From Pseudopyrenochaeta lycopersici (lineage: Eukaryota > Ascomycota > Dothideomycetes > Pleosporales > Pseudopyrenochaetaceae), in NCBI GenBank assembly GCA_003313425.1, contig NHZP01000005.1, forward strand, positions 1,674,001-1,738,000: a stretch of DNA of 64,000 nucleotides, written 5' to 3'. The notes below the pieces were generated by a model. The model was not told the DNA's origin. It did no database searches and worked only from the letters and a program-made list of their open reading frames with translations. Positions 5,666 to 56,708 of this stretch are shown in pieces. Every line of letters starts with the position of its first letter. The first letter of the stretch is position 1. The translations under genes were made by a program, and so were the position numbers.

Positions 5666-6140
5666 AACTAGGTGCTACGACTACAAGCTTATAGCAAAAA
5701 AATTTAGAATAATACTACTAGCCTAGGCTATGTATACTAGTCTAATAACTATAAAAAACTAGCCTATAGGCAGCTTGAAATAACTATAGTTAATTTTAAG
5801 AAATTTGTACGCATATAAGTAGAGCTAGCGCAGTTAGAATTAGAACAGCTTTTCCTTTTGCACGAGGAAGAAAGGCGAGAAGATGTTATACTAACATTTA
5901 AGCTGCGCGATCTAAAGGACAATCTAGCTAAAAATATAAAAGGATAGAGCTTTCTTAAAGACCTATATAACAAGTATATTATACTAAGTAAAAAGTAATA
6001 GATACTTAACTACGTTTTAGAGGCTAACTAGCTGCAAGATAAGTTTATAGAGGTACGTAAGAAGGATTCTAGAGTTATCTAGAAGCTTACAGCAGTAAAG
6101 AGATATATTATAAAGATAAATAGTTTCCTTAAATAACTTC
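5666..6140 (+). pseudogene. OrsD/telomere-linked-helicase-type protein, internal fragment (copy A)
   Basis: This is the same reading frame as copy B at 35527-36000, mutated independently. Reading stops as Gln/Trp gives VELAQLELEQLFLLHEEERR, LRDLKDNLAKNIKG-x-SFL and VKRYIIKINSFLK, segments characteristic of the long fungal proteins that start with C2H2/OrsD-type zinc fingers and in many fungi continue into a RecQ-like helicase. In copy A the first 1.4 kb of the gene is missing: homology starts exactly beside the gypsy gag start codon at 5664. Function of the segment is unknown. Confidence 0.6.
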
Positions 6141-11100: not shown

Positions 11101-11190
11101 TAGCGCGCTTAAGTTAGAAATAAGAGCAAATTCTAGCTAGAGTAGCGTAAGGCTCTCGCGCTGCTTTACGCTAATCTATTTCCTTTACTG
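8165..11190 (+). mobile_element. hAT transposon, RIP-degraded (copy A)
   Basis: Terminal inverted repeats TAGTAAAGGAAATAGATTAG at 8165 and its complement ending CTTTACTG at 11190; the unmutated form, seen at the right end of copy B, starts CAGTGAAGGAAATGGATCAG, a typical hAT CAG start. The flanking octamers (ATTATAAC left, CCTCTATA right) do not match, so no 8-bp target duplication is visible. Length 3026 bp, equal to copy B once a 125-bp insertion plus its duplication is removed from B. Confidence 0.85.
8600..11085 (+). pseudogene. hAT transposase pseudogene (copy A)
   Basis: With RIP stops read as Gln/Trp the frame gives an N-terminal BED-type finger (YYGEDIKLVSELK then YYYLCEKEN and SYLETKYKIYRE), the RNase H-like core (KAVLAIIAYFI, LLAL-x-EVKGTYS, FFIANNIDINNTCLNIVL, ending in NALNIRKQINQF-like sequence) and, at about 10670-10840, the C-terminal dimerisation block NMLAIPPMSNKTERVF followed by RLKIDIIKVNKYL. 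The dimerisation motif corresponds to the P-x-S/T-x-x-x-E-R-x-F-S signature of hAT. Dozens of nonsense changes make it non-functional. Confidence 0.88.
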
Positions 11191-11989: not shown

Positions 11990-11994
11990 TTAGG

Positions 11995-12169
11995 TGTCAG
12001 ATAAGAGGCATAAAAACTGAAGTATACGAATACTGCATCGTGGACGGTATCACCTATGTATCATCGATGTATCAGGTCTGTGTTTAAAAAGGAGAGAAAA
12101 CAGAACCAACGAAAATACAATAAATTCTGATCAACGATCATGACCAAAAAGATTCATTAAATTCTGACA
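11995..12169 (+). repeat. Copia 5' LTR
   Basis: TG...CA ends, 175 bp, matched by the right LTR at 17079-17253. It carries the element promoter and polyadenylation signals by family knowledge; no individual box is assigned. Confidence 0.95.
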
Positions 12170-17030: not shown

Positions 17031-17078
17031 GATATAGGTTAGTAGCAGCTTAGAAGATCACTCTAAGCTAAGGGGGTG

Positions 17079-17253
17079 TGTCAGATAAGAGGCATAAAAA
17101 CTAAAGTATACAAATACTGCATCGTGGACGGTATCACCTATGTATCATCGATGTATCAGGTCTGTGTTTAAAAAGGAGAGAAAACAGAACCAACGAAAAT
17201 ACAATAAATTCTGATCAACGATCATGACTAAAAAGATTCATTAAATTCTGACA
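17079..17253 (+). repeat. Copia 3' LTR
   Basis: Same 175-bp sequence as the left LTR with a few G/A and C/T differences (for example ACTGAAG versus ACTAAAG), consistent with RIP after insertion. Preceded by the purine tract at 17068-17076. Confidence 0.95.
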
Positions 17254-17269
17254 TTAGGTTAAGACAGTG

Positions 17270-17640
17270 TGCCGTTGCACAGGGTACCTGGGCAATCAGG
17301 TGATGATGGGTTTCCTTTGTCAGCGAGATTTGATGATAAGACTTGGAGATGCGAGAGATCTCAACGTAATGCACCAAAACCTCATGCACCACACTCCACG
17401 AGAATTCACTTCAAAAACTGAGATTTTGTAAAGTAGCTAGTGCATTAGCTACGTTAATTCATGAGATTTCAGACCATTTTGTTTATTACTTTTAATCAGG
17501 CTCCATACTTACCTTCGTTTCTGGCAGACTGCACAGGCAGAGCTGCTCCTGTTATTCACGCACGTTTAGATTCCATCGTTACCTCTCATTCACAACACCA
17601 GAACTGCGGGATTGTGCCGAACCACCTTGTTAACTCCACA
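17270..17640 (+). repeat. Giant gypsy element 5' LTR
   Basis: 371 bp, TG...CA, matching 29506-29876 with about a dozen transitions. An open frame of 110 codons from 17461 lies inside it and runs into the leader; it has no known motif and is cut short in the right LTR copy, so I do not call a gene. Confidence 0.92.
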
Positions 17641-18186
17641 AATAATGGCGAAGCCCAAGGGGCACAACGGTCTGTTCTAGTTAGGCTATGGCTAATGAGA
17701 GCAGAAAAAGCCTACATGGCATTGAACTGTCAACGTCGAAAACACAAATATGAGAGCGCTACATTGCGATACAGAGATCATAGGATTACCTAGAAAGAGC
17801 TGGGTGTCTGTTTGACCCTGACAAACCTTTGAGAGGGATGGCGCTGTTGCGGCCACCCCCTCTACATTTTTGGAGCTAAGAGTTGACAGGGACCAGCTCT
17901 GTTGAGGCTGTATCCTTGTTATCTTGCTATGACAAATTAAGACTTCCTATATAATGAGCGGAAGCTAACTTAGTAACAGAATAGTAACAAGAACAAGAAT
18001 AAGATAACAGAAAACAGAAACGAGAACAGCTATAAACGATTAAGAAATAATTCAGAAGTAGTACAGTATCAGATTTTAGTTAATTATCAGCGTTAGCAAG
18101 GAACTGCCTAGTAGTTACAGTCTCCTTATTCAGTTATACCGAAGGGCTGCAGCAGCCTATTCAGGATTCAGCCTTCAGCCATCCTC

Positions 18187-21100
18187 ATGGCTGAATCGAC
18201 ACCAGATTCGCTGTCATTTAGATCAGATCTTACGCCGGCTATTAAGGTTATTAAAAAACATACTATAGATACCAGCAAAGTACTTGTGCCTATAAGGCTG
18301 GCAAGGAAAGACTTTCTATTTACAGGAAAAGACGTCACTAAGTTCCTAGATGACTTTAATCGCCAGGCAGACAATGGCGGCTATAACAACTATTAAAAGA
18401 TAAGAATCCTTCCAGACTTCTGTAACACTATGTGCAGAAGCTTTATTAAGAAAATAAGGCTATACAGGGTACCAGACTAGAAGAAGCTTTAAGAAGTAAT
18501 AAAAGAGCATTAGCACGATTAAGATGTAGCTTAACGCATAGGAACGCGAGCGTTCCTGGAGACCTATGTTTCTGAAACGTTAAGAAAATTCCTAGGACTA
18601 TCTGAGTATTCAACCAACTTCGCAGCGTACAGTAACGCTTGCATTAAGACAGGCCAGCTACATAGGACAGAGGCTGGCTTCTTTTTCGCCAGAGGCCTTC
18701 CAAGAGAAGACCAAGATATAATCTTTATCCACATGCATGAAGGGCCGATTCCAGACAAGCTAGAGAGTTTTGATATTAAGAAGATTTACACGTATCTTAA
18801 GCGCGTGTACCGCCAGAGAGAGGGGATGAAACAGATATCCCCTGGTCATGCAGAAAGAGAGGCTAAGCTTGCACACCAGATCCTTGATCAAGAAAAGAAA
18901 ACATTAACAGCTGAGCAGCTAAAAGACGCAGTTGATGAGTATAAGAAAAGCAAAGTTTAAGAGGAAGCTAGGCCTGCTCTTCTACCCAGTGTAGATCCAG
19001 AGGTTTAAGACCTTATTTCAGCCCTCAGCGACTGGAAGATTAGCCTAGCTGAGGTTAACGAGATGATAGTTCATCCCAAGCTTAGTCAGATTCTGAGGAA
19101 CCCAGCTACGTACGCGTACTTCATCGGCTAAGTCGTCTCAAGAGATAATGCCAAGCAGTCACTATCAGAAAGGAATAATGGCTCGTACATGACGACAGCT
19201 CCTCGCAACTTAAATCCTCAGCAAGGCGCAATCACTATCTAAGGACGTGAATATTAAAACACTTGTAATATGTGCAACCTCCCTAGTCACATTGCTAGAG
19301 AATGTGAGCTATATTAGCTGCTTTTACATCTTAGCTAGATTAGCTTTAAGTAGAACAAGGAAGTTAGATATAAGACTTACTATTTTGGTCCTTCGCACAA
19401 GAGGTTAGGGCAAATCCAAGGAACTACACCCTGAACGTTGCAGCTCTATTAGTTAAAACAGAAAATTCAGGAGTATTACGGAGTTACTAACGATGTCTTA
19501 GATTAGCTAGCATCAGCAGTATGTCCAGAGAAGTTTAATAGAGTAGACTTAAGGCCTACTCAATATCGAAAGCTTGGACTACCAGCTGTGCAGCAACAGA
19601 AGGTAGTTAGTCCTAATACGAATACGATTGCAGAAGATAGATATAGCAGGATAGCTATAAGCCCGGCCAAGGACCTACTAAACTTTCAGAACGTTAGGAT
19701 ATTGCCAAGAGGCTCGACTGAAGCGTGTTTTGCCCTTGATAAGGTCACATCTCAGGACATTATTCTTAGTGCTTTTAAGGAAGGAGCAGTAAATGCTGGC
19801 TTAACTTATGCAGCAACACGCTCTCAAACGCATCAGAATGTCGGGAAAGATCCAGTTCTTAAGAAAGTCAGGCAGAGCAAAGTTCAGAAGCAAGCTCCTG
19901 CCAAACCTCCTCATTCTGAACAACCAAAGCGAGTCACAGTCAAGGACTATCGTATGCCTGTTATGAGAGGCAACACTGCATTCGAACCAATAGATATTAA
20001 GGAGTTTGAACGAGTAGAGCTGATTCTATTCGCCAGCTAAGCCTATAATAAGCTATTCTCTCTTATACAGCCTCTAGACAACGATAGAAGCTTTCAGGAT
20101 TTAAAAGCTGAGCCTGAATTTGTTAGTCAGAACAAGAAAAAGAAGAACTAGAATAACGGCCTTACTAACACAGAGCTCCGTCATTTGCTAGGCCCGCATC
20201 CAAACTATATCGCCACCACTATACTGCGTTAGGAGGTGCGTGGTGTAACTTTTAGGGACCTTATGAGCCAACATCAGCTTCAAAAACAAGTTAGAAATAT
20301 ATTGAAAGTAATTAATAAGCCTGCCGCGTCGTTAGCCAGCGTAAACGCTGTGGAATTGAGTATTGGGCCAGCCAGCCAATCAGCAATTGCCAGGTCAGCT
20401 AAGCGAGACCTGTTGGAACCTGATTAGCTGACACTGCAGTACCTTACCCCGTACAACCCCGCGTCCGCCTATGTCATTAGGGATGTTTAGAGGCATTTTT
20501 CTAATAAAAAAAAGGTTAAATTAAATTAAGTAGAGACAGTTAGTCTCGAAAAAGGACTGAATTTAGAGCTTAACTCAATACAATTTAGGACTTTTAATGC
20601 ACAAACCAGGCATAAAGCCCCAGGAACATATAACACTTAGCATAAAGCTTCAGTTAATCCTACTAAATAAGAAGCCACAATAATTCGAAAGAAGATAGGC
20701 ATAGCCTACGTGCAGTGTAACCTTCTAACCTGCTAGGCCTCATTTAATGGGCATGCAGTAAAGTGTCTCATTAACACTGGCGCACAGATGAACCTTTTAA
20801 GATATAGTGCGGCCAAGGCATTAAAGCTTACATATGAAGACTATAAGTAAGGTAGCTCGCATCAAGATAGAGTAGTTACTGCGAATAGAAGCACTGATCC
20901 TTTTGTGGGAACTGCGTGGAGTGTCCCAGTCAAAGTAGGAGAGGTAACTGTTGTCAGTCACTTCAGGATCGTTCAAAACCTGACGAGATCAGCGATTTTA
21001 GGTAGACCTTAGTGCGCTTTAGCAAGGTTATTAATTCAGTATAACGTATATAGAAGGATTACGTACAGGATTATTTCTAAGAATAGAGACAGAAACGCCG

Positions 21101-21257
21101 TCTTCATAGCCTCTAATCCTGCTCCGCTGCATCCAAGAGACCATATGCCGACTCCTAAAGATAAGGAAAACATGTAGCAGACACCCTTTCTGGGGAGGAG
21201 TGTCTAGATTTAAGTAGAAGATACCTAGGGCGATGTTTCAGTTCAGAATCTTATTCA
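18187..21257 (+). pseudogene. Gag and protease of the giant gypsy element
   Basis: ATG 18187 opens MAESTPDSLSFRSDL and one frame, interrupted only by RIP-type stops, continues past 20430. It shows capsid-like helices (ARKDFLFTGKDVTKFLDDFN; then LRKFLGLSEYSTNFAAYSN), a coiled basic stretch to about 18960, and a zinc knuckle CNMCNLPSHIAREC (C-x2-C-x4-H-x4-C) at about 19264-19305. Further on, in the same frame, VKCLINTGAQMNLLR near 20762 is a retropepsin active site in which Asp of D-T-G-A has become Asn, followed by the flap region and a C-terminal ILGRP. Gag and protease therefore share one frame in this element. The frame ends near 21257 and pol continues in the -1 frame. Confidence 0.85.
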
Positions 21258-24200
21258 TCTTATGCTCAGGTTAAGTATATTCAGGAGGCTAAGTTTGTGA
21301 AAGCTTCTGTTGGATTTAGCGAATTTTCACCTATTTTTACGACTAATAATAAGCAGCAATTTAAAGAATAAGTAAAGCAAGTAATAAGCTATAGAGTTAG
21401 AGCCTCTAAGGATCCTTCAGCTGTGCGAGAATTAGAGTCTTTTTTAGTCATGTGTGAACTTAACCGTCAGGCGCAATGGGAAAAGAGAAGGAAGTACACA
21501 GGCAGTCAGGTCAATACCCTGCATAAGAGGGTAGCTGACAAGGTGCGACCTGTAGATATTCCTGCGGCATCAGATATTAAGGAGTTTGGGCGTGAGGATT
21601 GGAAGCGACATGCTGTTGAACTGCAACTCTTAAGAAAAAGTCTGAGACCTCTTAATATAGGGCCTTTTAATCACCTTTTTAAATGCAGACATGCAGCATT
21701 CCTATAGGGCATAAGATTAACACCAGAAAGGCTAGCCTCACAAAAGTTTAGATCTAAGTTAATAAAATTAGAAGTTTAGCTATTTATTAAAATGTTAATG
21801 AACAGAGAAGGCGCGATCGCTTTTACTTTCTCTGAGACAGGACAAATTATTAAGGATGTATATCCTCCATATAAGATACGGACTATTAAACATAAAGCTT
21901 AGCAAGAAAAATCGTTCCCAATAGCGCGAGCTATTAAGGAAGAGGTAGTTACAATATTTAATAACAGACTCAATAGAGGGGTACTAGAAAGATGCGCCAG
22001 TTAGTACAGAAACTCATAGTTTCTAGTCAAAAAGAAGGATAAGAGTCATCGGATAATACTTAGGTCAATTAAGATGAACGCAGTGTCTCTCAGGGATGCT
22101 AATCTGCCTCTGATAGCAGATAAATTCTCTAAGCATTTTAGTAGATGTCGTATTCTGTCTCTTATAGATCTATTCTTAGGATATAACCAGATCACACTTC
22201 ATCCAGACAGCAGAGACATAACTACCTTTCATACGCCAGTTAGTTTGCTTCGATACTGTACAATAGTTCAAGGCGCAACTAACTTAGTTACAGTCTTTTA
22301 GTAAGTAGTTACAAAGATTATAAAGGATTATTAGCTATATACTATTCCTTTTATAGACGACATTACTACTAGCAGTCCTAAAACTAACTATAGAGGAGAA
22401 GAAGCATTTCCTAGAGTAAGAAGATATGTGTTAGAACACATTCAGCAGCTAGACAGGGCTCTAGCTAACGTAGAAAGAGCTAGAGCTATAATTTCAGGCA
22501 AAAAGTGTTATTAGGGAGTCTCCAGATTAGGGGTAGTTAGATATAAGGTTACTACGCAAGGAAGACATCTAGATTAACAGAAAGTAGCTAAGATTCTAGA
22601 TTAGCTAGAATACAGAAACGTGAAAGAAGTAAGGGCGTTTATGGGTATCTATGTCTACTACAGGATATAAGTGCCTAGCTTTACTATTCGCGCGAAGCCC
22701 CTGTTCTAGTTAATAAGGACTAGCGTTGAATAGACATAGCAGGGGGCTTAACAAGAGGCTATGCGTACCTTAAAGCAATACATTACTTTAGCCCTAGTAT
22801 TAGTAAGTCCTGATTATAAGAATAGAGGTATGCTTTTTATAGCAGTAGACGCGAGCAAGGAAGGCGTAGGCGCGTCTCTTGAACAGATTAGAGCAGACGG
22901 AAAAAGACATCCGTGTCAATTTGAAAGTACAATATAGTTAAAAGCTGAGAGTCTCTAGCACTTAATAAAGCTTAAGTACAAGGCAGTATTATAGGCGCTA
23001 AAGAAATTCAGAACCTAGCTATATAGACAACATTTTACTATTAAAACGGACGCTTAGACGCTCATTCATCAACTCAACAGATCATCGCCTGACGTTCCTA
23101 GGTCAGTCCAAAACAGGTGGCTCGCAGCTATCCTTACCTAGGACTTTAACATTAAGCATATTCCTAGAAAGAAGAATATTATTCCTAATGCGTTGTCACG
23201 ATATCCAAAGCCAGAAGGATAGGAACAGCCAGACAAGACTAAAGACGACCTCGAAGATTTCATTAAAAACCTAGTCGCTAACCTCAAGTTTGCCTCGCCT
23301 GCTAAGACGAGTAGGGTACTAAATAAGCAATACTCAGACGAGTTAGAAGCAATTACTTAGTTCTTAATAAGATTCAAGAAGCCTAAAGGCCTCACGAGGG
23401 CACAACTTCGAGCGTAGAAAAAGAGGGCGATAAATTTCTTTATGCGAGAAGGCTATCTATTCCAAAAGTCTACAAGGAATATAGCTATTCGTCGAGTTAT
23501 AGATAATCCTAATCTAAAGACTGTAGCTATATAGGAAGTATATTAACAGACTAGTTACAGAGGAGTGAACAGCGTCTATTCAATGCTTACTCAACGATAC
23601 TAGTAGGAAAGGATGCATGAGGAGGTGCGACGCACGATTGCATCATGTGAATAGTGCCAGCGGAGATCATCAAGTCGCAAGCAAGAGATGCTAACAAATA
23701 CCTACTGTCACGCATTATAGGAACGAGTTACTATAGACGTTGTTTACATGCCGCATTATCAAGGAAAGAAATTTATCGTAATTGCACGAGAATACCTTAG
23801 TAGATGGCCAGAGGCACGAGCAATAGCTAACAACAAGTTATCTACTATCGCTAAGTTTTTATATAAGGAAATCTTGTGTCGCTAGAGTATAACAAGGACA
23901 CTTACTATAGACAGCAGACCTGATTTCAGAAAGGTAGTTAAAGCCCTTACTAAGATTTATCGTATTAGGAGGATCTAGGCATTAGCATATAACCCTTAGG
24001 CTATAGGAAAAATTAAGGGTAGTTACAAGCCAATATGCAACGCACTAGCAAAGCTTCCTAGACCTTAGGTTAATAATCTTCCAACAGTATTGTGGGCAGA
24101 CAGAATTTCTACTCAGAGTCAGACTGGATATTCTCCTTATCAGTTAGTTACTAGTCAGAATCCAGTACTTCCGATTAAGCTTGCTCTTCTAACATAGCAG

Positions 24201-24923
24201 ACATTGCCATTCAGACAAGTAACATTAAGAGGCCAGTTATTAGCGGTGCGAGCTATGCAGCTAGATTTAAGAGATCAATTTCTTAAGGACGCAGTGTCGA
24301 GAACTAAGCGCCTGCGACGCGAAAAGAAGGAATATTAGGATAATCACAGAGAGATTCGTCAAGAGGAAATTAAAGAAGATAACTTTGTACTAATGTAGGA
24401 CTTAGCTAGAAACATTAACATGTTAAGAGACAAGAAGCTTACGAGTAGATAGCTGGGACCATACAAAGTCTTTCATGCTGATTAGGATAAAGGTAACTAT
24501 CAACTTATAGACCTTAACAGCACGCGATTCAGAAACACTACCCTAGGATAGAGACTTAAGCTGTAGGTACCTTAAGATAAAAGCGAGGTCGCTCAGGAGC
24601 ATCAAGGTCGTGCAAAGCTATAGGATCCTTCGTTATAGGATACTGAAGCTGACTTTTTACTACCGCCTACTCAATCTAACAACTCTTAAGATGATAAGTT
24701 CACAGTCATTAAAAATCCTAACTAAGACGCGATTTAGTTACAAGAGACAGAGAATAATCCTCCTATAAACTTAGATTTATCTGAAGATATAATACAGCTA
24801 ACTGCACGCAGCTATCCTATTATTATACTAAGATCTTTGACAGAGACTAAGAGACGACAATATGTTCAAATACCTGATTCAGAAATTAATTCTAACTCAG
24901 AAGATAAGCTTACTTAAGCCTAG
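21160..24923 (+). pseudogene. Pol (RT, RNase H, integrase) of the giant gypsy element
   Basis: The frame opens about 21160, overlapping the protease frame by up to 100 bases, and ends with stops at 24915 and 24921. RT blocks: FLVKKKDKSHRIILRSIKMN, LIDLFLGYNQITLHPD and the catalytic FIDDITTSS at about 22350, with both aspartates kept. RNase H: MLFIAVDASKEGVGASLEQI near 22830 and NRWLAAILT. Spacer FNIKHIPRKKNIIPNALSRY. Integrase: the zinc-binding HEEVRRTIASCE-x-C, core TIDVVYMPHYQGKKFIVIAR with the partner acidic residues, and a chromatin-binding-like tail with SR-x-LGPYKVFHAD. Order RT-RNase H-integrase identifies the Ty3/gypsy superfamily. Many Gln/Trp codons are now stops. Confidence 0.9.
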
Positions 24924-25262
24924 GGGACGGGCTTTCATCTTAAAGCAGGGGAGGGGCTGTATTTCCTTTGTTAAATTTTCGCATATTTTTATACATTCAG
25001 CATCACACACACGCAGCGCAACCTCCCAGACACATAAAAATAAGTCAAAATTAAACGAAATATCATTTAGAGTCGCTGGGAGGTCGATCTCCTTACTGCG
25101 CGATCGAAAATAGTAGAGAAACCAGGGTGTTAAAGAATCTGGCCAATCAGCAATCGCCAGGTGAGCTTAGCGAGACCTGCTAAAATCTGATTAGCTGGAC
25201 AACTTAATATCTGCGCCAACAGCTGCAACGCAACTACGAGGCCACAGAGCAACAATTCGAAG
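24924..25262. other. Spacer between pol and the third frame, with an internal purine tract
   Basis: Contains AAAGCAGGGGAGGGGCTG at 24941-24958, which looks like a second polypurine tract directly after pol, and at about 25140-25198 a 59-bp segment nearly identical to the end of gag at 20374-20432. Otherwise AT-rich and without a gene. Confidence 0.6.
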
Positions 25263-28200
25263 ATGCAGAATCAATTAAAGGAGGTAGAAGATAAGGTAAT
25301 TAATGTTTTAAAGTGTGAAAGTAAGTTTATAGCTGCGTTTGGCAGTAAGATAAGACCCGCTCAGGAAACGTTCCTAAGTGGCCAACTCTTAAGAGGAACC
25401 GCTATGCCAGCCAATCAGGCAACAGGAAGGAGTTAAAATAATAGCAACTTCACCTTTTACTACGTTAACAAGCTTTAGCGGGGCTTTCAAGTAAAGTTAG
25501 GGAGGGAAAGATACCCTCCGCCGCTTAAACCCCCTCCAAATCTCAAGCCTGTGGTTAATCCTACAGGGCCTAAGTTTCTCTTTCTTGCTTCCTATCACTA
25601 TCTATTAAAACTTTCTGAGGTAGACACACGAGTACCTGTCAGGTACAAACTTCAAGCGATGTCACAGCCGCCTCAGACACCCAAACAGCCTGGGAAGCGT
25701 CCACCCCCACCGTCAAACCCAAATCCTTAACTAACCACAACTACAATTAAGCCTACGCCGACAGAGATTATGCGATTTACTAGTAAAGAAGCTATTAAAG
25801 ACTACAGAACTAAGCTTAAGCGTTATAGTAACGTTGAAGTCCCTTAGCACGCAGGGATCACAGTAGACACTTAGGTTTGAAGCTTGCTGTAAGTCTCGCC
25901 TGTTAAACAGAAGGGCATAGTAGATAATTAGATAGTAGCCTTAGCGACTTACTTTAACAAGACTTCGACCCTTATTATCGCGACTAGAGAATTTCTAAAA
26001 GGAAGACTGAGCCTAATATCGCAGTATAGAGGCGTCGCTGCTTTTAAGCAGTAATATCCTATACTTAAGGACATAGACACTTACAAGAAGAAGAGAAAAA
26101 AGGAGACAGAGAGCGCGTTTGCCTATCTGGACGAACACTATCAGCATGTACTGAGGCAGGTTCTTATTCCATATTCTGTTTAGGTAGTGTACTCGCACTC
26201 TGGCGTGACGGCAGTCTAATAGTTACTGCGCAGGACCTTGCTAGACAACCTCGCTCCCTTCTTTAATACAGCTCTTTACTATCAACGATAATCTGCGAGG
26301 AGGAGGCAGGATAGATTTGTTAATATTACTAACTAGGAAGAAGTACGTCAGCAGATAGCTAACATGCCTGCTTAGATAAAGAAGTATTATAAGGACGGCA
26401 ACGCTAAGTTGCGCAGCATCGTTAATAAGCATAAGATACCTGCCTCCAAGATCACAGCTAATAATATAGACACGCGCTCTAGACAAGGGTACCTTAACTA
26501 GATGTTCTAGACAGAGGCAATTAAATAGTATAGAAAGCAATTACATGCAGGGATGAAGCTTCCTCTAAATGTGCCTATTCCACCTAAGTGGCTGCAGGAG
26601 AATCATTTCAGGTATTATAAGCAGACTAAGTTACTTCTTCCTGCTGCTAGCAATAGCAAGAACGATTCAGCGACTAAGGCTGGCGTCCAGACGACAGCCT
26701 TAGCGATAACTGCCTCTAAACGTGCTAGAAGCTAAAGCCCAGCCACTTTATCAAACATTAGAGGGCGCACGCAAGTTATTAAGCCTTCTAGTCTTAGTTA
26801 TCAACGCACAAGCAAAGAATTTAGAAGCGATATCTAGAATAAGCTAGAGAAGCTAGGCGAGCCTTGAACGGACAGGCTGTCTGTTACAGCTGAAAGTATT
26901 CAAGAAATCCAGCTAGAAGAACGACGTTTAAGAGGAAACAGGCGCACTTAACAACAAGTTAAGGCAGTAGAGGCCCTTCAAGAGAAATTCCGTCTTAGGC
27001 GGCGTTAGAGATTTCCCTCTACGCAGCCTCTCGCTCCAGATAAGATTCGCGTAAGAGACTTAGAGTTAGTAAGGCAGTTACGCGAAGAGTCAGAAATGCT
27101 GCTAGCAACACTTAACGATAGTATTAACGTTCGAGACTCAATTAAAGAAGACATCTCGCTTGAAACCAGCATCGCAGTAAAATCGCGCAAGGGATGTAAC
27201 TGTATGAACAAACAGTCTACTCTAGTTAAGATGACCGCGTCGCTCACGTCTAGGAAGTTGAATAATGGTAAGCGCGTCCAGCTGATTGGTACCTGGTATC
27301 AAGAGTGTGTGAATTTCAGCACTCTCAAGGATAGGCAGGGTAGTCAGGTATTCAACCATCGCAGGGTGTGCTGGCAACATTACTGTTACGTGGCTAGCAA
27401 GATAGGCCTGCTTACTCGAAGCCTTAGCATTTCAAACACAGTTTAGCTACTCAAGATACTATACTATCGTCAGGATTGATAGGGTTAGCTTCAATCAGAC
27501 CCAGTAACTCAAGTTCTGTTCTTAGCCCCGTTTTGAGGAGACTATACGCATCAAGACCTGAAGAGCTATCGTTATCGCCCAGTAAAAGTTTGAGTCCAAA
27601 TTAACTAGGACGAAGTTGCTAAGGCTCTTGATTGGGGAGTATATGTTAAAGCATTCAAGGAATACAGCAGCATTACCTACGACGCCTTTAGCTGGATTTT
27701 TAAGGATCCTGAGCTAGTCTTAATCCTTAATTAAAGTTTTAATATGTACCTCTACCACACGCAGCTAATTGATAGCAAAAGCAACCTTAGCTAGTGTCAG
27801 GTAATGTATTATTCGTTAATACAGCAGCTTGTGCGAAGTGACGTTGAATACTAGCTGCTGTACGCAGTCTTGCGAAAAGAGCCTAACCTAATTTCCTACC
27901 CTTACTACACGAAATACACTAAGCCTGGGGATAAGACTTACTTCCGTTACGTTAACTTAAACATCTCTAAGGCTGTATACTCAGGCAGAGGCGTAGACAT
28001 TATCCAAGGAAGCGTCTCTTTTAACAATAAAGACAAAGACAACTACACGCAGATACTACGTGGCTTTCATAATATTATCCACAAGTACCAGAACTGGCGA
28101 GAAAACTCAGGACTCAAGAACTCCACTAGTTACATTAAGGGATAGGACGATAAGAGGGACTGGCCAGAGAGTTGCAGTGCGAAATTCCCTGACGTTGAAT

Positions 28201-29120
28201 AGTTCAGTCAGCCTTGCAAGGCTGGTCACGTCCGCATCTCTAATCCTAGGCTGCCTCATGGATCTACTAGGCCTGCAACTAAGCAACAACGAACTATCTT
28301 GCCTTAGTTTGTCAAGGTAGAAGAGGACATGACTACGATAGAGATTCCTAAGATGGGCTCCTATCAAGAGCTCGCTGCTGCCTTTCAAAGCTTGACTGCC
28401 GCGCCAAAGTCACCGTCTAGACACTCAAATCACTATAGCAGCGTCAAGTAGGCCTTTCCTAGAGATATTACACCAGTGTACTCGTCAAACATTGCTAAGG
28501 CTGTGAACTGTCAGCTAAGATAGGATTCTCCGCTAGTTTTAGAGGAACTAACTAACTTATTCACGGATTAGCCTGACCCTAGTTTAATCCGTCAATTTAT
28601 CAAGGATACTAGGAAGGCTACAGTAAAGATAATCAAAGAGCATTAGGTTATCTGCTAGCATCATGAGAAGCTTGCTTTTAGAGAAGACAAAGACATCAGC
28701 GTACCTAACAGGTCGTTCTTCTCAAATAAAGGTATAAATCCAGCTTAGGAAGCTGAGTGGTGGAAGCACGATAGGCAGGTTAAACAACGCACTGCCCTAG
28801 ACAAGGTTCTTAAGGAGCTTTCTAATAATCCTAATAGCAAGGCTGCTAGGATGCTGGACAGGAAGGAGAAACCGAGGCGCCTGTCCATCCGAAGCGCAAC
28901 TGAGTCTCCACAGACTTCAACTCATGCTAGTTCACGAAGGTCGTCATCGCAGCAACAGGCGCTAGGTCAGTATTCGCCTGGTCAGTCACCTATAGGACCT
29001 CCTCCTGCGCCTTCTCGTCCTGGGCAAGCGCAACCTGACATAAGCGCGTCAAATCTGCATACACCGTCGCAGACTCCTCATCGTAGCAAGAGGATTAAGG
29101 AGATCAAGAAGAAGAAGTAA
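25263..29120 (+). pseudogene. Third reading frame of the giant gypsy element, dioxygenase-like C-terminal region
   Basis: One frame of 1285 codons from ATG 25263 to TAA 29118, broken only by RIP-type stops, follows pol and precedes the polypurine tract, where an env-like gene would sit. There is no signal peptide or membrane segment. Visible parts: a proline-rich stretch (residues about 135-155), a long basic helical region (270-600), NHRRVCWQHYCYVASKIGLL near 700, then residues 870-1010: YPYYTKYTKPGDKTYFR followed by Y896-V-N898, then GSVSFNNKDKDNYTQILRGFH, and RISNPRLPHGS with H999 and R1010. The pattern H-x-D, a downstream H, and R about ten residues later is that of 2-oxoglutarate/Fe(II) dioxygenases; Y896 and N898 are one RIP transition from His and Asp. 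The C-terminus is Ser/Pro-rich ending in KRIKEIKKKK. Similar proteins are, I believe, encoded in other fungal genomes as hypothetical proteins; the dioxygenase call is an inference. Confidence 0.6.
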
Positions 29121-29505
29121 GGCTTGACAGACTCTGATTAGCTGAGTGCCTCCAGGTCGTTTAAGGGATACTAGGACGATGGCATACTTGCTAGCGTCTT
29201 CAACAGTAAGGTTAAGGCGCATTTTCTTTTGTTTTTCCTACTATCTTTAGGAGATTTAACGATAAAGTGCGGGAGTTCATAAAGGAACCTGCACAATTAC
29301 GAGGACTGCTCCTCCTACAGAAATGCAGCCTATACTGCCTTCCCTTTATTCATAAGGCAACAATTTCTTTCTTTCTTTCTTTCTTTCTTTCTTTCCTTTT
29401 CCCAGTTCTCTTCTCCTCCTACTAGTAGTTCTACTTGCGAGGAGAAGGAACAATAAGTAGGAGTTGTAAGCTCAATAGGACTGAGCTCGAAGTAGGGGAG
29501 GTTTA
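29121..29505. other. 3' non-coding region of the giant gypsy element with (TTTC)n and polypurine tract
   Basis: No frame of note. A (TTTC) microsatellite runs at about 29366-29400 and the polypurine tract AAGTAGGGGAGG lies at 29490-29501 immediately before the right LTR. Confidence 0.75.
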
Positions 29506-29876
29506 TACCGTTGCACAGGGTACCTAGGCAATCAGGTAATAATGGGTTTCCTTTGTCAGCGAGATTTGATGATAAGACTTGGAGATGCGAGAGATCTCAA
29601 CGTAATGCACCAAAACCTCATGCACCACACTCCACGAGAATTCACTTCAAAAACTGAGATTTTGTAAAGTAGCTAGTGCATTAGCTACGTTAATTCATAA
29701 GATTTCAGACCATTTTGTTTATTACTTTTAATCAGGCTCCATACTTACCTTCGTTTCTGGCAGACTGCACAGGCAGAGCTGCTCCTGTTATTCACGCACG
29801 TTTGGATTCCATCGTTACCTCTCATTCACAACACCAGAACTGCGGGATTGTGCCGAACCACCTTGTTAACTCCACA
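29506..29876 (+). repeat. Giant gypsy element 3' LTR
   Basis: 371 bp, same length as the left LTR, with more TpA changes (for example GGTAATAATGGG for GGTGATGATGGG). Preceded directly by the purine tract and a TTTA spacer. Confidence 0.92.
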
Positions 29877-29882
29877 ACAGTA

Positions 29883-30711
29883 AGTAACGCAAATTATTAT
29901 TATATAACGCGTTTAGGTTCGCATAATTATTTAGGGACTAAAGGATTAGTACGCTAACTATAACTCTTCTTAAATTATTAGAGAGAGAGTAGTAGAGTTA
30001 GTTAATCTAGGCTCCTTTGTTTAGGTTAGTATTAGCTACTAGCCTTCTAAAATCCGCGAAGTAGGATAAGAAGTTCTTCTTTCCTTATTTTAAGTTATCT
30101 AATTAGCTCTACGCAGTAAGTTCTTAGTTTAGATCTCTGTAGGTAGCGTTAAGGAATCTAATAAGTTAATCTATAGTTATAATATCTTTATCTATAAGAG
30201 GGTCTACTAGTATAGCAGAGTCGCGCTTAAGATAAGAGTGTGCGTAGATTAGGCGGGCTTCTTTATTTACGAATTAATTAGCGTTTCCTTTTAACTTATA
30301 TTATAGTTTTATTAGGAAGAGTAGGAAGTCCTTCTTCCTTCTACTAAACGCAGGTAGGTTAGGGAGTTATTCTAATTTTAGCCTAATCGCGGAGGGTTTA
30401 GAAAGGGAGGTTTAGGTTGTAGGTAGGGTAAGAGTTATAGGAGAGAATCTATTACTAGATAATGTCTCTTTATTACCTAGTTAGCTCTTAGCTTTAGTTA
30501 TTATAATAGCTAGGGTAGTAGCAGACTTTGTCTTAATTACCTTAAGTTCTTAGCGTAGAGTTGCTATCTCTTCGTAATAGCGGGCTTCCTGCTTAGACAG
30601 GGAGGCCTGTAAGGCTTTATTTCTAGCTTTTAACGCTTTACTACTAACTCTTAGTTCTTATAGCTGTTGCAGGATAAGCTAAAATAGATCTATATTTTCT
30701 TAAGAGGCTAT
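29883..30711 (-). pseudogene. Gag remnant of another gypsy element (host of the nested insertions)
   Basis: Minus-strand reading from about 30711 (start codon mutated ATG to ATA) gives a coiled coil (LQQL-x-ELRVSSKALKARNK, ALQASLSKQEARYYEEIATL), then capsid sequence LPNLPAFSRRKKDFLLFLIK, KEARLIYAHSYLKRDSAILV, TIDQLIRFLNATYRDLN and KKNFLSYFADFRRLVANTN, typical of a gypsy Gag that uses a fitness-type capsid fold. Stops are RIP-type. The reading runs to the giant element's insertion point at 29877; its continuation would be in 11989 and below. Confidence 0.78.
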
Positions 30712-30952: not shown

Positions 30953-31813
30953 GAGAGTAAAGTAATAGAATAAAGTATAGAAGAAGAAAGATAGTAGAGT
31001 ATTACTAACAGCTATTATTTAGTTAAAAGTTAGGAGAGTAAAGAAATATACTATAGTATAGAGAGAGAAGAATAGTAGGGTTTTGCTAAGTAGTATTATA
31101 AAGTTTTAAAAGAAGAGAGTAAAGTAATATAATAGAGTATAGAGGGAGAAAGATAGTAGGGATTTACTAAGCGCTTTAAATAGAGTTAAGAAAGAGGAGA
31201 GCGAAGTAATATAATATAGTATTAAGAGAGAAAGATAGTAGGGATTTACTAATAGCTATTTATTAGATATAAGGCACATATCTAGCAGTAGTTAGATTAG
31301 ATGTGCGCATAATAAGGTGCGACGCTAGTGCAACGCTAGAGGAAAATCACACGTAAGGAGCGGCGAGTTAAAATTAAGCTCAGCCCCTCCAGAAGACAGA
31401 GAGCACAATTAATTAACACATCATCAACTTATTCTACATGAACACGCTATTAAGTATTAAATCTAACACTATTATAAAGTTAAGAGTTAAGAGAGTAAAG
31501 TAATATAATATAGTATAGAGAAAGAAAGATAGTTAAGATTTACTAACTACTTTTATAGGGATAAGAAAGAGGAGAGTAAAGCAATATAATAGAGTATAGA
31601 GGGAGAAAGATAGTAGAGATTTACTAACCGCTTTTATTAAGTTATAAAAGAGGAGAGTAAAGTAATATAATATAGTATAGAGAGAGTAAGGTAGTAGGGG
31701 TTTACTAACTACTTTTATAGAGTAAGGAAGGAGGGAGCAAAGTAATAAGGTATAGTATAAAGGGGGAAAGATAGCAGAGATTTGCTAGAGAGGTATTTAG
31801 GATCTGACTTAAC
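30953..31813. repeat. 81-bp tandem repeats, eight copies in two blocks
   Basis: Units begin GAGAGTAAAGTAATATAATA and end with GGGATTTACTAA plus a variable CTTTTAT-type tail. Starts at about 30953, 31034, 31115, 31197, then 31491, 31572, 31653 and 31733 give a spacing of 80-82 bp. The blocks are separated by about 230 bp (31261-31490) of different sequence that is less mutated in part. Position upstream of the minus-strand gag suggests they belong to that element's leader. Confidence 0.82.
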
Positions 31814-31927
31814 CCTTAGTCTATTTCTTCGCATCCTAATTTACTTAGTTTCAGCCTGCAGCTCGCCTTATTAAAGCATTTCGCAATAGTTATGCTCTAA
31901 TATTTACCTCTTAGCGTAGCTTTTATA

Positions 31928-33773
31928 ACGTGAGCGGCAAGCGAAACGCCCAGGTAAGCGAAACGCCCACTCTTGCCAAGACCACACCTCCTTCTACCTT
32001 TAACTACAATGTCTCAACAACTTAATATTGAATTACTCCCTTGTGAGGATAGAATTATCTTAGCTATCCAAGCAATGAAAAAAGACGCGACATTAAGTGA
32101 TCGACGAGCTGCAGCAGTCTATAACGTTCCTAGAAGGACTCTCCGCGACCGACGCGCTGGAAAGCTTTTACGACGCGACAGCCAACCCAACTCGTTAAAG
32201 CTTAACAGGCACGAGGAAGACGCGATTATCCAATATATAAGGAAGCTAGACGCGCGAGGATTTGCCCCTACACTGTCTTATCTCCGTGAGATAGCGAATT
32301 AGTTGCTGGCTGCTTGTGGTAGTGGCCAGGTGGGAGAAAAATGGGCTAGAAACTTCCTCTCTCGTAAGCCTAAGATTAAATCCCAGCTAAGTAGGCCACG
32401 CGACTACTAGAGAGTCCTATGCAGCGATCCAGCTGTTATTAGCCCCTAGTTTGACCTTGTACGCAACATTAAAGCTAAGTACGGCGTCCTAGATGAAGAT
32501 ACCTATAACTTTGACGAGACTGGCTTTACTATGGGCGTAGGAGGGTCCGTCAAGGTGGTAACTGCGTCTGAGAGACGTACTCGACCACTGGGGATACAAC
32601 CTGGCAACTGCGAGTGGGTGACGTTGATTGCTGGTATTAACGCTATGGGCTGGACAATTCCACCCTTCATTATCTTCAAAGCTAAGAACCACGACAAGTC
32701 CTAGTTGCCTGATCTATGTAAGGGCTGGCGTATAGGCCTTAGTAAGAACGGCTGGACTAACAACGAACTTGGTCTAGCCTGGCTACAGCACTTTATCCAG
32801 CATACAGCAGCCCGGACAGTAGGCAGTCACCGGCTACTAGTAATTGATGGCCACGAGAGCCATAATTCACTTGCCTTCTAAGATCTATGTAAGGAGAACA
32901 AGATAATTACCCTCTGTATGCCTTTCTATTTATCCCATATCCTGCAGCCGCTTGATGTGGGCTGCTTTGCGCTATTAAAGCAGGTATACCGGCGAGAGAT
33001 TAGGGTCTTAGCAGACAGTCACATTACCTACATTGATAAAAAAGCATTCCTAGCTTCCTTTAAGGAGGTATTCGAGACCTCATTCTTACAGCAGAATATT
33101 CTATCTAGCTTCTAAGCAACTGGCCTAGTCCCACACAGCCTAGAGGTGGTGCTATCAAAGCTTAAGGTGAAGCCTCGCACGCCGACACTACCTCTACCAG
33201 GGCCTACCCCCTGGCACCCTAAAACACCCAGCAACGCCTAGGAGATAGAGGCTTAAACAACACTAATTATGAAGAGGATTCGTGACTATAAGAGTTCCTC
33301 TCCTGATTCTATTATTAAGATAGTGTTACAAGTTAAAAAGGGATTAACATTGAAGGTACACTCACACACGTTGCTAGAAGCTAGAGTAGCTAGTCTTGAG
33401 CAGGCAAATAGAGCTGCTTCTGAGCAGAAAAAGCGTAAGAAAAAGCGGATCTAGCAGGGAGGGACCCTATTAAAGGAGGAGGGAGAGGACTTAATTACTT
33501 AGAGGGACGTTAATGCCCAACTTAAGGTGGAGAGGCGTGCGGAGAGGGCTCAAACAGGTGCTAGTACAAGGGGTATCCGACGCTGTAAAACTTGTGGAGA
33601 GGCAGGACATAATAAGCGCACGTGTAAGAAAGATATAGTAGAAATAGAGGATTAATTTAAGCTACTATAAGCTGTAGTAGCTTTTTGTAGGATTAAGTTG
33701 TTAACGTGCAAAGTTGTAAAGCTTGGTGGGGTGGGCGTTTCGCTTACCTGGGCGTTTCGCTTGCCGCTCACGT
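31928..33773 (+). mobile_element. pogo/Fot1-type transposon, complete copy 2
   Basis: TIRs ACGTGAGCGGCAAGCGAAAC at 31928 and the complement ending at 33773, each with the CGTTTCGCTT motif twice, about 45 bp long. TA lies at 31926-31927 and 33774-33775. Length 1846 bp, usual for Fot1 relatives. Same family as the copy at 1-652 but in opposite orientation and with RIP-type changes. Confidence 0.96.
32009..33655 (+). pseudogene. pogo-family transposase with C-terminal zinc knuckle, broken by stops
   Basis: ATG 32009 to TAA 33653, 549 codons in a single frame. First stop at codon 99 (TAG where the copy at 1-571 reads CAG). HTH region residues 31-50; catalytic blocks NFDETGFTMGVGG near 32510, LVIDGHESHNS near 32840 and LQPLDVGCFALLK near 32940 give a DDD triad. 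The C-terminus reads RRCKTCGEAGHNKRTCKK, a CCHC knuckle, seen in several fungal pogo transposases. Stops are TAG at former Gln/Trp sites. The knuckle may aid nucleic-acid binding. Confidence 0.93.
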
Positions 33774-34107: not shown

Positions 34108-36000
34108 ATGGACCTTTTTTAGTATCTAGACAAATGTTAAGCATAGGTTTGCGTTAGTTGCGACTATACGCCGAAACCGCAGCATTATATAAATTACCTG
34201 CGACGCTATTACGCTAATTATCTAAACCTTAACTCTTTAAAGAAAATACGTGCCGTTATTAAGGAGCTTCTGCAGAAGCCCGTAATTAATCCTAATAAAA
34301 CAAAGTTCTAGCCGCTGCCTATTAACTCGCTTGCGCTGCCGCACCTACCTATCTATAATAGCATCTCCTACCTGTAATATAGATTAGTTTATTACTCTAA
34401 GGAGACTATGCGTAAATACTACAGGATGCGACATACTAAAAGTAAACGCTCGCAGGGCCGCCCCTTAAAAGCTTATGCAGAAGTCCTACTACGCTAGAAG
34501 AAAGTCTTGTACTAGCGTCTGTTTATTACAGGCGCTAGTAGTTATTTCTTTGCTATTATTTTGCTAGCTAAAGTCTAAGAAGAGGAGGAGTCTTAATAGC
34601 GCTAGAGAATAGTAGACTCGCTCTCTAAAGTAGATTTTATTAAAGCCTAGATTAACAAGATGTTAGAAGAGAGTATGCAGGAGGTTACTGCTTTAGAGAA
34701 TGTTATCTTAGATAATGCGGCGCTGACTAAGGTATCTCTGTAGCTTAAAATAACATAGTAGCTACGTTATCTCTATAGATACGCCTTTAATAAAGTAGCT
34801 TGATTAGCAGCTCTAGTAGATTTAACCTCTAAACCTCTTCTAGTAGAATTTTCGCAAAGCCTTAGCTATATTATTTAAGAAGCCTACTAGTCTATCCGTA
34901 CTAATAAAGTTAATATATTTAACTAAGCGCAGATTAATAGCTTTATTTAAAAGTAGAGAGCCTAGGACTAGCCGCTTATAGTAAAGCTTCGAGACTTAAC
35001 GTATTAGGACTATAAGAAAGTCTTTTAGAGACTGCTCTGCTTTGTAGTCTGCAGCACCTAACTAGGCTAGCGCGTTATATTATCCTATTAATTAACTACC
35101 CCTTAGCTCGTATACCTTAACTAGATAATAGGGTTTAGTAAGAAGTTAGTTGCACTTAATAATAAGGAGAAGAAAAGTATTAAAGATAGGTAAGAGCAGA
35201 GCTTTCTTCGCGCGGAAGTTTAATTGCAGCTAGACCGTGCCTGTCTCTAGTTCTGCATGTCTATCCTAGATCATATATTAAAAGGCAACCTCTTTAAAAG
35301 TATTACTATTAGTTTTTTAGCTATACTTAAGGTAGATCTAGTTAAGAAGATCTTTAGAGATGCTTCCTCTTTTACACTGTACTTATCTGCGTTCGTAAAG
35401 ATATTACAGATACTTGTTATCTAGTAGTTAGTAATAATAGCGGAAGATAGGGATATTAACTACCTATCAGATATATTAGACGAGATAAGAGAAAGGTTTA
35501 TAATTTATGGAAGCTAATCTCTATTCAACTGGGTGCTACGACTACAAGCTTATAGCAAAAAAATTCGGAATAATACTACTAGCCTAGGCTATGTATACTA
35601 GTCTAATAACTATAAAAAACTAGCCTATAGGCAGCTCAAAATAACTATAGTTAATTTTAAGAAATTTGTACGCATATAAGTAGAGCTGGCGCAGTTAGAA
35701 TTAGAACAGCTTTTCCTTTTGCACAAGGAAGAAAGGTAAGAAGATATTATACTAACATTTAAGCTGCGCGATCTAAAGAATAATTTAGCTAAAAATATAA
35801 AAGGATAGAGCTTTCTTAAAGACCTACGCAATAAGTATATTATACTAAGTAGAAAGTAATAGATACTTAACTATGTCTTAGAGGCTAACTAGCTACAAGA
35901 TAAGTTTATAGAGGTACATAAGAAGGATTCTAGAGTTATCTAGAAGCTTACAGCAGTAAAAAGATATATTATAAAGATAAATAGTTTCCTTAAATAACTT
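34108..36000 (+). pseudogene. OrsD/telomere-linked-helicase-type zinc-finger protein, N-terminal part (copy B)
   Basis: From ATG 34108 one frame, broken by RIP-type stops only, reads MDLF-x-YLDKC then VCVSCDYTPKPQHYINYLR (a C2H2-like finger), LPHLPIYNSISYL, the block RHTKSKRSQGRPLKAYAEV, and later LDRACLQFCMSILDHILKG, FLAILKVDLVKKIFRDASSF, FNWVLRLQAYSKKIRNNTTS and VELAQLELEQLFLLHKEER. This order matches the long N-terminal region of fungal OrsD-type proteins, some of which continue as RecQ-like helicases near telomeres. Only this half is recognisable; a helicase domain is not seen. The 3' part from 35527 is duplicated at 5666. Role in the fungus is unknown. Confidence 0.65.
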
Positions 36001-38025
36001 CTTCTTATTATTTACTTTGTAGGCTAGGTAGCTAGGATTAAGAGGGTCGCGTTCTTACTAGGGTGTAATAGCCAGTGCGCGCTCGCTAACCGAGGATTAT
36101 CGCAGCTAAGACAAATATATGAGTTACGCTGTAATAGATAAAATAGCGCTGCAAATGCATTTTAGACGAGGAAAAATATATAAAATAAGAGGAAGTAGAT
36201 TATTCGTGCAAGTAATACTTTAATTTGTTAGACAATTGCTATATAGCTGTGCTATAAAGGGCGTTTAGTGGCCTAATCCCTAAAATAACCTCTCTGCAGA
36301 ATTAGTAACCCCTCCTGTAGAACTAGAACTAGTGCCCCTTATAAAGTGCTTCTAAGGTTTAATACTCGAATTTTGTTTATACCTAGTTATATTATTGTAA
36401 CAGTGCTAAAATATAGTCTTATATAAACTATTAAATAGTAACCTAAAGCCTAATCTACTAACGTATAGTAATAGTAAGAAAGGATCCTTCTAAGCTAAAA
36501 TATCCTCTTAAAAAGCACATCCTACTCTTACGCGTAAAGAGGTAGAAGAGTAAGAATAGCTAAAGTAGAGAGAAAAGAGAGCTTACTAAAGAGCTAAGAG
36601 AGCATAAGACGCTGTAAGAAATATAGTATTATTAGAACTGTAAATCTAATTAGTCTCTTTTAACGCAGGCTAGTCATAGTACGAGAACTCTCTTTTATTA
36701 GAAATTAATACTAATAAAATAGAAGCATAAGCTTAATTAGCAGACGTATTAAGCTAGAGCTATTTAGAGAGCCTTTAAGCCCTAGAGGTTAGTAATATAA
36801 GCTAGGAGAGGCGGGACTAATAGGACGCAACATTATGTTAGATCCTAGCCTTTTAAAGGGAGGGGTACAGAGATAATGCAGGCGATGCAGCAATAGACTA
36901 ATTCTGTTACCTTCTTAGAAGGGAACTATAGCTATTATTAAATAAAGGCGCTAAACTCGCTAGCTATCTAGTAATTACGCGATCGCAGACCTACTTACAG
37001 CTGTTAGCTTATTCGCCTGTGCTTTTATAACGCTTACCCTTACTACCCCCTACTCTAAATTATCTAGACAGGTCTGCTCTATTTATTTTACCTAAACTTC
37101 CTCTAGTAAGCTTAACTAGGTTAGAATACCTTAGAGAATATAACTATTATTCTAATTAATACTTTAACAGCGTAGGGATATATAACGTCGTAAATAAGGA
37201 GGGAGACTATATAAGCTCGCTAAACTTAGTAAATAACCTCTAGCTAAAGAATACGCTATTTAAGCTAGAGCATAACTATCGCTCCTGTGTACCCTCTCTA
37301 ATAGCGTAAAAACACGTAGTCCTGTAGCTGTCGTGCTCCTATCGCTTTATCTAGCCTACTGCGTTTAAGGCTCCTAGATAATGTTCCTACTGCATATACT
37401 TATTAAATTTACCTATAAAGTAATACAGCTTTTAAAGTGTCCCTCTAGTAGAAAATAAAACTAAGATCTATAATAGCTAGATTAGGCATAGACTAGCATT
37501 ACACCCTAGTTAGCGATTATATCTAATTATAATTTCTTATACTTATCTAAAATTTTTAGCTTAAATCTTACTAGTTATTTTATACAGTCCTATTTAATTT
37601 ATTACGCTACTTAAACTAATAGGTGCTACTACGCCTATTAGGCTGCTAGATCTAGTAATTTATTTTAGTAAGGGTTTTAAGGACTCTAAAGACTAGACCC
37701 TACTAGAATAGGACGCTAAATAATAGTGCGGGATAGGGTATAGTTTAGCCTATTAAGGACAAATTATTAGTGTAAGTAAGTATAGCCCTAGTATTAGGTC
37801 TTATGTATAAATACATTATTGCGTGTAGGTACAAGTAAGTAATCTAAGTATAAGGGGCTGCGTAAAGGTTACTAATACCTAGTAACAGGATTATATTTAA
37901 TAAAGAAGAAAGCTATCTTAGGAGTAAGGCAGTATTTATATTAGCCTAACTCCTCTTAACTCTGTAATTAAGAAACTTCTAGAAGTTTCTAGGACTCCTA
38001 AGGTTCTACTAAAGAGCATTATAAC
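36001..38025 (+). pseudogene. Unknown RIP-degraded frame (copy B of 6141-8164)
   Basis: Aligns base for base with 6141-8164 at an offset of 29861, differing by C/T and G/A changes. It holds the same basic-then-leucine-rich frame without a recognisable family. It ends at the hAT left terminus. Confidence 0.4.
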
Positions 38026-38459
38026 TAGTAAAGGAAATAGATTAGCGCAAATATAGAGTAGCTAGAGTAACGCAGATTTAGCTAGAGTAGCGTAGGCTTT
38101 ATTTTCTTAGTAGCTAGAGCAGCGCGAAAGTCTACAGAGCGCTTAGCGCTCTAATATAACTTCCTTATTTAGGAAGATAATAATTCTACAGACTATGTCC
38201 TATAGTATTAAGGTTTTATATTTATACTAATAATACTTAAGGGTATTTAATTAGGCTAATAGATATTACTTACCCCTGTCCTACCCTAATTTTGTAGCTA
38301 ATTAGTAGTCTATTATTATTACCGCGGCTATATCACGTTGCGTGCTTTTATTTCTAGTCTTCCTTCTCCTCTTCCTTTTTTATTATCTACTAAAATATTA
38401 ACCTAAAGCACTATTAACTAGAGTAGTAACAGCGCTATAAATCCTCGCCTTAGGCCTAC

Positions 38460-41080: not shown

Positions 41081-41179
41081 AAAATAGTCTAGCGCGCTTA
41101 AGCTGGAAATGCGAGCGAATTCTAGCTGGAGTAGCGCAAGGCTCTCGCGCTGCTCTACGCTGATCCATTTCCTTCACTG

Positions 41180-54381: not shown

Positions 54382-54821
54382 AATATATCTTTGTTCAAAC
54401 TTTGCGATCAGCCTCTCCCTCCATGTAGCTTGTAAGAGCTGACTGTGAATGTGCCACGAACGGGGAGGTTTTTCCCAACCATGCAACCTCTTGCTGTTCG
54501 GATCGTGGCGCTATTTGCATCGTAACGAAAGAGTCCGAACCGGAACTGTCTGGCTGCTTTGATTTAGCAGAAAGATGCCAAGACTATCTGATGACCTACT
54601 GTCGAGACGCTGGTCACAGAGCTCCAGAAGGAAAAGGCGGTGATGCTTAGCTCATTCATTGATTCGATTGCTTTGCTGGTGGAGGGTGCACAAGGTAGGG
54701 TGGTAAGGGGCAAAAGAGAGAAGTGAGAGTAAGAGAGGACGATAAGGGGTGCCTGACAGCCTTCGGTCATCGAGCGGCCCGATGCATACGGGAAAGGCTC
54801 GGCTATTGGCCCTACCGTATA
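54382..54821. other. Spacer between two pogo elements
   Basis: Normal composition, no gene supported. An 88-codon minus frame at 54564-54830 overlaps the next TIR and lacks motifs. The last two bases (54820-54821) are the TA duplication of the next element. Confidence 0.45.
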
Positions 54822-56706: not shown

Positions 56707-56708
56707 TA

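Follow-up and report, generated by a model that had tools for sequence, protein, structure and literature searches.

A Ty3/gypsy retrotransposon of 12.6 kb lies at positions 17268-29876 of a 64,000-nucleotide stretch of the Pseudopyrenochaeta lycopersici genome (referred to as the window; a part of contig NHZP01000005.1, or C5), and it carries between pol and the polypurine tract a third gene, designated ORF3 (third open reading frame). The data show that a Ty3/gypsy lineage has ORF3 as a true third gene, that the gene occurs in two diverged families of elements and that it is selectively constrained. The assignment of its product to the 2-oxoglutarate (2OG)/Fe(II) dioxygenases is supported by a motif present in 28 of 28 relatives, by Pfam PhyH and by the predicted fold. 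A sequence-only reading of the window had placed a single frame of this kind inside the mobile unit and suggested the enzyme class; both proposals are borne out, the extent of the gene had to be revised, and its supposed kinship with TET/JBP is not supported.

ORF3 as a part of the mobile unit

The own genome (62.7 Mb) was searched with three 1-kb pieces taken from pol, from the start of the frame as first described (position 25263) and from the end of ORF3. At least 40 full-length or near-full-length copies were found for each piece, and the best 40 of 146, 99 and 134 candidates, respectively, were scored; the frame-start search returned one additional match, a 31-base fragment. The point matching position 25263 lies 3261-3264 bp (once 3356 bp) past a fixed point of pol in 32 of the 40 frame-start copies listed; the other eight have no pol copy among the matches listed, which also lack both ORF3 pieces for five of the 40 pol copies. 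The ends of the element were sought in 11 copies, one of which (C3) was excluded, its 5' long terminal repeat (LTR) being outside the fetched piece. In the ten others, the window copy included, the 4-bp target duplications are identical in nine cases and differ by one base in one; the LTR pairs have from 1 to 13 differences each, 55 in all, every one a transition and none a transversion. The LTRs of the window copy agree at 366 of 373 positions, so the earlier claim of matching LTRs with target duplications stands, except that each LTR measures 373 bp rather than 371 bp. ORF3 belongs to the mobile unit.

A second family of elements (family B) was found at C74, C23 and C60, with LTRs of about 328 bp and pair identities of 100%, 97.9% and 93.6%. 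The order of its genes is gag, protease, reverse transcriptase (RT), RNase H, integrase and ORF3, as in the family of the window (family A). The RT piece is 62-63% identical to that of the window, and over the longest match its ORF3 shares 39-40% identity with P0002, one of the relatives treated below. Considering that ORF3 occupies the same slot in both diverged families, the slot has been kept during their divergence. A nested insertion or a lone host gene in the window copy is ruled out by the ends and duplications of the copies together with the second family.

For counting changes by codon position we used transversions, which RIP (repeat-induced point mutation) does not produce. Between the ORF3 copies at C27 and C74 there are 306, 241 and 412 transversions at codon positions 1, 2 and 3; the bias is more pronounced towards the C-terminus (165, 121 and 241) than in the N-terminal portion (141, 120 and 171). 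The excess at position 3 therefore places the ORF3 frame under protein-level selection.

The frame at 25263-29120, first described as a gene of 1285 codons, contains 42 internal stops in the window, whereas the two alternative forward frames have 81 and 134. Its codon 58 is a TAA common to nine of the nine copies examined (window included) and is for this reason probably ancestral; codon 133, at position 25659, is the ATG in agreement with the P0002 N-terminus. Since the upstream TAA is shared and this ATG matches, ORF3 is placed at 25659-29120 (1153 codons) and probably starts there, not at 25263.

The breakage of ORF3 is RIP of the CpA type, judging by the C-to-T pattern, although individual stops were not each traced to it and the proposal that RIP was the only cause probably does not hold for codon 58. 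Compared with the less mutated C27 copy, which retains a stop-free stretch of 944 residues in ORF3, the C-to-T rate in eight copies is 0.24-0.43 at CpA, 0.06-0.22 at CpG and at most 0.03 at CpT and CpC. Other own-genome copies have from two stops upwards across the matched part of the gene. Three loci for cytosine methyltransferases were found in the genome; the C11 piece shares 71% identity with one database protein, 51-53% with the three best named relatives (Ophiobolus, Setomelanomma and Plenodomus, all Pleosporales) and 33-34% with two further named ones. By its motifs it may be a RID-type enzyme. A literature search for RIP at CpApG found nothing, which bears on the RIP question only.

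The predicted enzyme

Residues 600-1100 of the window frame were used as the protein query (E 1e-3 or better), and 28 unbroken relatives of ORF3 were found, the best being 53% identical; two of the 28 are named to species (Alternaria tenuissima, AA0114_g10631, and Trichoglossum hirsutum, GP486_002201). In the numbering of P0002, His787, Asp789, His890 and Arg900 (HxD...H...R) are kept in 28 of 28 and Arg901 in 27; Cys532, Cys534, Cys591 and His594 (C-x-C...C-x2-H) are likewise invariant in all 28 and possibly bind a metal. Of 39 invariant columns, 29 fall within residues 666-925. The dioxygenase layout noticed in the sequence-only reading is found in every relative, and the Tyr-x-Asn of the window copy is confirmed. 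This copy is dead on two counts, its stops and its Tyr-x-Asn...Gln-Arg active site.

The cut-off of Pfam PhyH (PF05721, 22 bits) is passed by the C27 copy (22.6) and by the Alternaria relative P0014 (24.8); the seven other relatives scanned with P0014 are under it or have no match. Two predicted structures match solved 2OG oxygenases with the double-stranded beta-helix fold whose absence could have spoken against the class, and the nearest solved folds among the matches listed are of the DUF1479/PhyH kind. In the viral fold library the matches belong to giant viruses and phages and are of the PhyH type; among the 50 matches listed, some of which are nameless, none is named as a retroelement protein. 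Solved DUF1479-type proteins (YPO2976, YbiU and GIG2; PDB 7twe, 4rgk and 6akz) show 10-15% identity; they differ in being cellular proteins of 409-451 residues, and the relatives of ORF3 have no match to Pfam DUF1479, which is absent from the eight families that they match at E 0.1.

Other searches were less informative. With X at its stops, the window frame matched no Pfam family and had one match among PDB sequences (E 0.92, taken as chance); P0002 alone had none there. The 28 relatives matched four NCBIfam families with one member each (E 0.045-0.084), which we also attribute to chance, as we do eight weak matches from a profile search of PDB (best Nop58, E 0.0016, and Serrate, 0.0038), which concern helical parts. 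A profile search of a large protein database returned P0002 alone and is uninformative.

We believe, with a probability of roughly 0.8 for the explanation as a whole when its anti-silencing step is set aside, that the ORF3 domain belongs to the PhyH/DUF1479 structural group and that the unbroken relatives have a complete site for iron and 2-oxoglutarate, as sequence comparison and the models indicate. Unbroken proteins of the family are likely active oxygenases, a prediction drawn from the fold, the site and the selection.

Structure of the element and its surroundings

The features of the element are collected in the table.

Table. Features of the ORF3-bearing retrotransposon (positions in the window)
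Feature	Position	Strand	Remarks
Target duplication, left	17264..17267	.	ACAG, 4 bp
5' LTR	17268..17640	+	373 bp, TGTG...CACA
gag region	18535..20040	+	stop-free pieces 18535-18960 and 19507-20040
Hairpin module, copy 1	20375..20430	+	about 56 bases, two-tier; inside the gag-protease frame
Aspartic protease region	20740..21177	+	ends approximate
pol (RT, RNase H, integrase)	21372..24917	+	ends approximate; frame differs from gag-protease
Hairpin module, copy 2	25142..25197	+	about 56 bases, two-tier; between pol and ORF3
ORF3, probable extent	25659..29120	+	1153 codons; 40 internal stops in the window copy
C-x-C...C-x2-H site of ORF3	27195..27380	+	
2OG/Fe(II) oxygenase domain of ORF3	27594..28364	+	corresponds to P0002 residues 666-925; fold matches indicate a double-stranded beta-helix
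HxD iron site	27948..27956	+	window copy reads Y-x-N
Distal His, with the two Arg positions 10 and 11 residues after it	28257..28292	+	window copy reads H...QR
Polypurine tract	29488..29503	+	assigned from position and sequence
3' LTR	29504..29876	+	373 bp
Target duplication, right	29877..29880	.	ACAG, 4 bp

The first gag piece matches all three family B elements (33-37%) and the second matches that of C74 alone (31%); no Pfam family was matched by either, nor by the protease piece 20851-21012, which also matches family B elements. Pfam gag-asp_proteas was found in the C27 copy, in the part corresponding to the protease region of the window. The pol pieces of the window score 20 bits for RVT_1, under its cut-off of 29.6, and 38.8 bits for RT_RNaseH_2, over the cut-off; in C27, RVT_1, RNase H and Integrase_H2C2 are all over their cut-offs, and the solved structures nearest to its RT piece are Ty3 RT (4ol8, E=8.1e-11) and Ty3-G (7q5b, 4.8e-10). 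The domain order by Pfam, on window and C27 pieces, is protease, RT, RNase H, integrase. No integrase chromodomain was seen in the stop-free pieces scanned, a weak SH3_Tf2-1 match being present in one C74 piece only. An apparent -1 step separates the gag-protease and RT-integrase frames (window 21177-21372, and four further copies, L049-L052); in C27 the stretch between them has no clear frame.

The hairpin module occurs twice per element, before the protease and in the gap between pol and ORF3, in five of five family A and three of three family B copies examined. Its outer stem is common to both families and its inner stem is family-specific; it sits at corresponding places in the two families, even though their sequences are largely diverged. 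Most changes in the module are RIP-like, and the following values should be read with this in mind: paired cells make up 93.0% versus 90.0% after shuffling (0 of 500 as high) and 13.5-42.5% when slid; the covariation score is 0.207 versus 0.164 (5 of 500); cells with a two-sided change number 14 versus 9.5 (20 of 500), pairs with such a change 5 versus 5.3 (394 of 500), and further pair types 11 versus 12.5 (488 of 500). An Rfam scan of window 17200-29950 at E 1 gave no match. The module may act as a signal in expression or processing, or as a palindrome to which a protein binds.

Several other repeats were observed in the window. A 176-bp direct repeat (98%; 11994-12169 and 17078-17253), the second copy of which stops 14 bases before the 5' LTR, perhaps represents the ends of another element adjoining the gypsy element. 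A repeat of more than 5 kb is present at 5666-11190 and 35527-41179 (main part 94% identical), its first copy having just two stop-free stretches of at least 75 residues. There are also an inverted repeat of 654 bp (97%; 1-654 and 31926-32579), an 81-base tandem repeat in two arrays (30953-31787), a DNA transposon (54819-56709) whose terminal inverted repeats (about 85 bp) are 93% identical and whose open frame of 561 residues contains a DDE_1 domain, and a stop-free piece (51932-52360) with a weak Tc5-type DNA-binding domain, under the Pfam cut-off.

Possible roles and known systems

We presume that the ORF3 protein, which would consist of a helical N-terminal part, the C-x-C...C-x2-H site and the C-terminal oxygenase domain, works for the element rather than for the host. 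It would oxidise a macromolecule, either methylated nucleic acid or a side chain of chromatin or Gag, and the oxidation would most likely ease silencing by RIP or cytosine methylation. That the protein eases silencing is our leading guess by analogy, though a tentative one; it is preferred because the host is a RIP host and the oxygenases of other elements are thought to counter such marks, as stated in excerpts of PMC12730594 and PMC9289625. An action on nucleic acid or chromatin, also suggested in the sequence-only reading, is neither shown nor excluded. Still less probable is the fuller proposal, in which a PhyH/DUF1479-type oxygenase of an old gypsy lineage would remove or alter host silencing marks, outside TET/JBP and AlkB and perhaps guided to the element via the duplicated hairpin; we consider it unlikely as it stands.

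Several points weigh against an active oxygenase that serves the element in this way. PhyH is matched at E 0.1 by no more than 11 of the 28 relatives, and the genomic context of all 28 is lacking (scans of viral and genome contigs for their neighbourhood gave 3 and 31 pattern matches, none confirmed). Among 11 own-genome loci both HxD residues are kept in only two; the distal His is kept in ten, Arg900 in ten and all four residues of the C-x-C...C-x2-H site in eight, one locus being covered in part. No own-genome copy scored has a stop-free oxygenase part, so any protection is incomplete. Finally, amino acids or small molecules are the substrates of several solved enzymes among those listed.

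The last point leads to the alternative that stands close behind the anti-silencing guess, although in itself it is doubtful: the enzyme may act on small molecules or on side chains of amino acids (such as proline in Gag, or the nucleotide pool) and so aid particle assembly or reverse transcription, silencing being untouched. It agrees with the presence of proline hydroxylases, GriE and EctD among the solved folds listed, while the large N-terminal part and the C-x-C...C-x2-H site would look unusual for such enzymes.

Two further alternatives, both very unlikely, draw on known systems. The excerpt of PMC12730594 (2025) describes TET/JBP genes in fungal DNA transposons and Helitrons, states that no retrotransposon with TET/JBP was found and offers a possible reason. 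One could regard ORF3 as a 5-methylcytosine oxidase of the TET/JBP kind that reached a retrotransposon from fungal DNA transposons; both cases combine a fungal mobile element, a 2OG/Fe(II) oxygenase gene and RIP or methylation as the suggested opponent. However, Pfam Tet_JBP (PF12851) is matched by none of the 28 relatives at E 0.1, the nearest folds listed are DUF1479/PhyH, and the carrier is a retrotransposon, not a DNA transposon or a Helitron; the kinship suggested earlier is not upheld. (A Tet_JBP scan of the own genome gave no match, but neither did the controls.) Similarly, ORF3 might be an AlkB-type demethylase of N6-methyladenosine (m6A) in RNA. According to the available part of PMC9289625, Ty3/Gypsy elements of the orchid Phalaenopsis, 25 kb long, carry an AlkB gene of the 2-oxoglutarate-dependent dioxygenases (an m6A demethylase), are called recent and occur in only two Phalaenopsis genomes of that screen. 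The kind of element, the extra frame and the broad enzyme class are the same; yet Pfam AlkB-like (PF13532) is found in none of the 28 relatives at E 0.1, PhyH being matched instead, and the present elements belong to a fungus, have a PhyH/DUF1479-type domain and form two diverged families. The 50 fold matches listed include no TET or AlkB structure, an absence that excludes nothing. The most improbable explanation, a single chance capture of a host gene that has since been a functionless passenger, would suit the stops in the oxygenase part of every own-genome copy scored, but disagrees with the same slot in two diverged families, the codon-position constraint and the invariant active site of the relatives.

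Fungal LTR elements with additional coding sequence have been described before, and the excerpts concerned name no oxygenase: brtn of the Botrytis Boty-like elements (PMC8365987; antisense, according to a title cited there), additional genes and a dUTPase in some fungal chromoviruses (PMC2774666), and "complex transposons" that contain inserted domains and are described as a single locus hit by multiple insertions (PMC3248453). The extra genes in the excerpt of PMC3538342 belong to a hAT transposon, not a retrotransposon. The anti-silencing role proposed here resembles that of VANC of the Arabidopsis VANDAL transposons, which is element-encoded and counters the silencing of its own kind of element (PMC5735166); the analogy is limited to the inferred role, as that is a plant element and no oxygenase is named in the part of the source available. 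No report of a PhyH-type gene in a fungal retrotransposon was found among the papers listed in the literature searched, which excluded most subscription journals.

With a different and conserved oxygenase in a lineage of retrotransposons, the question of element-encoded anti-silencing oxygenases becomes testable in a new setting, and ORF3 hints that mobile elements have acquired oxygenase genes more than once. If its substrate is indeed a silencing mark, ORF3 would represent a new enzyme class for that job.
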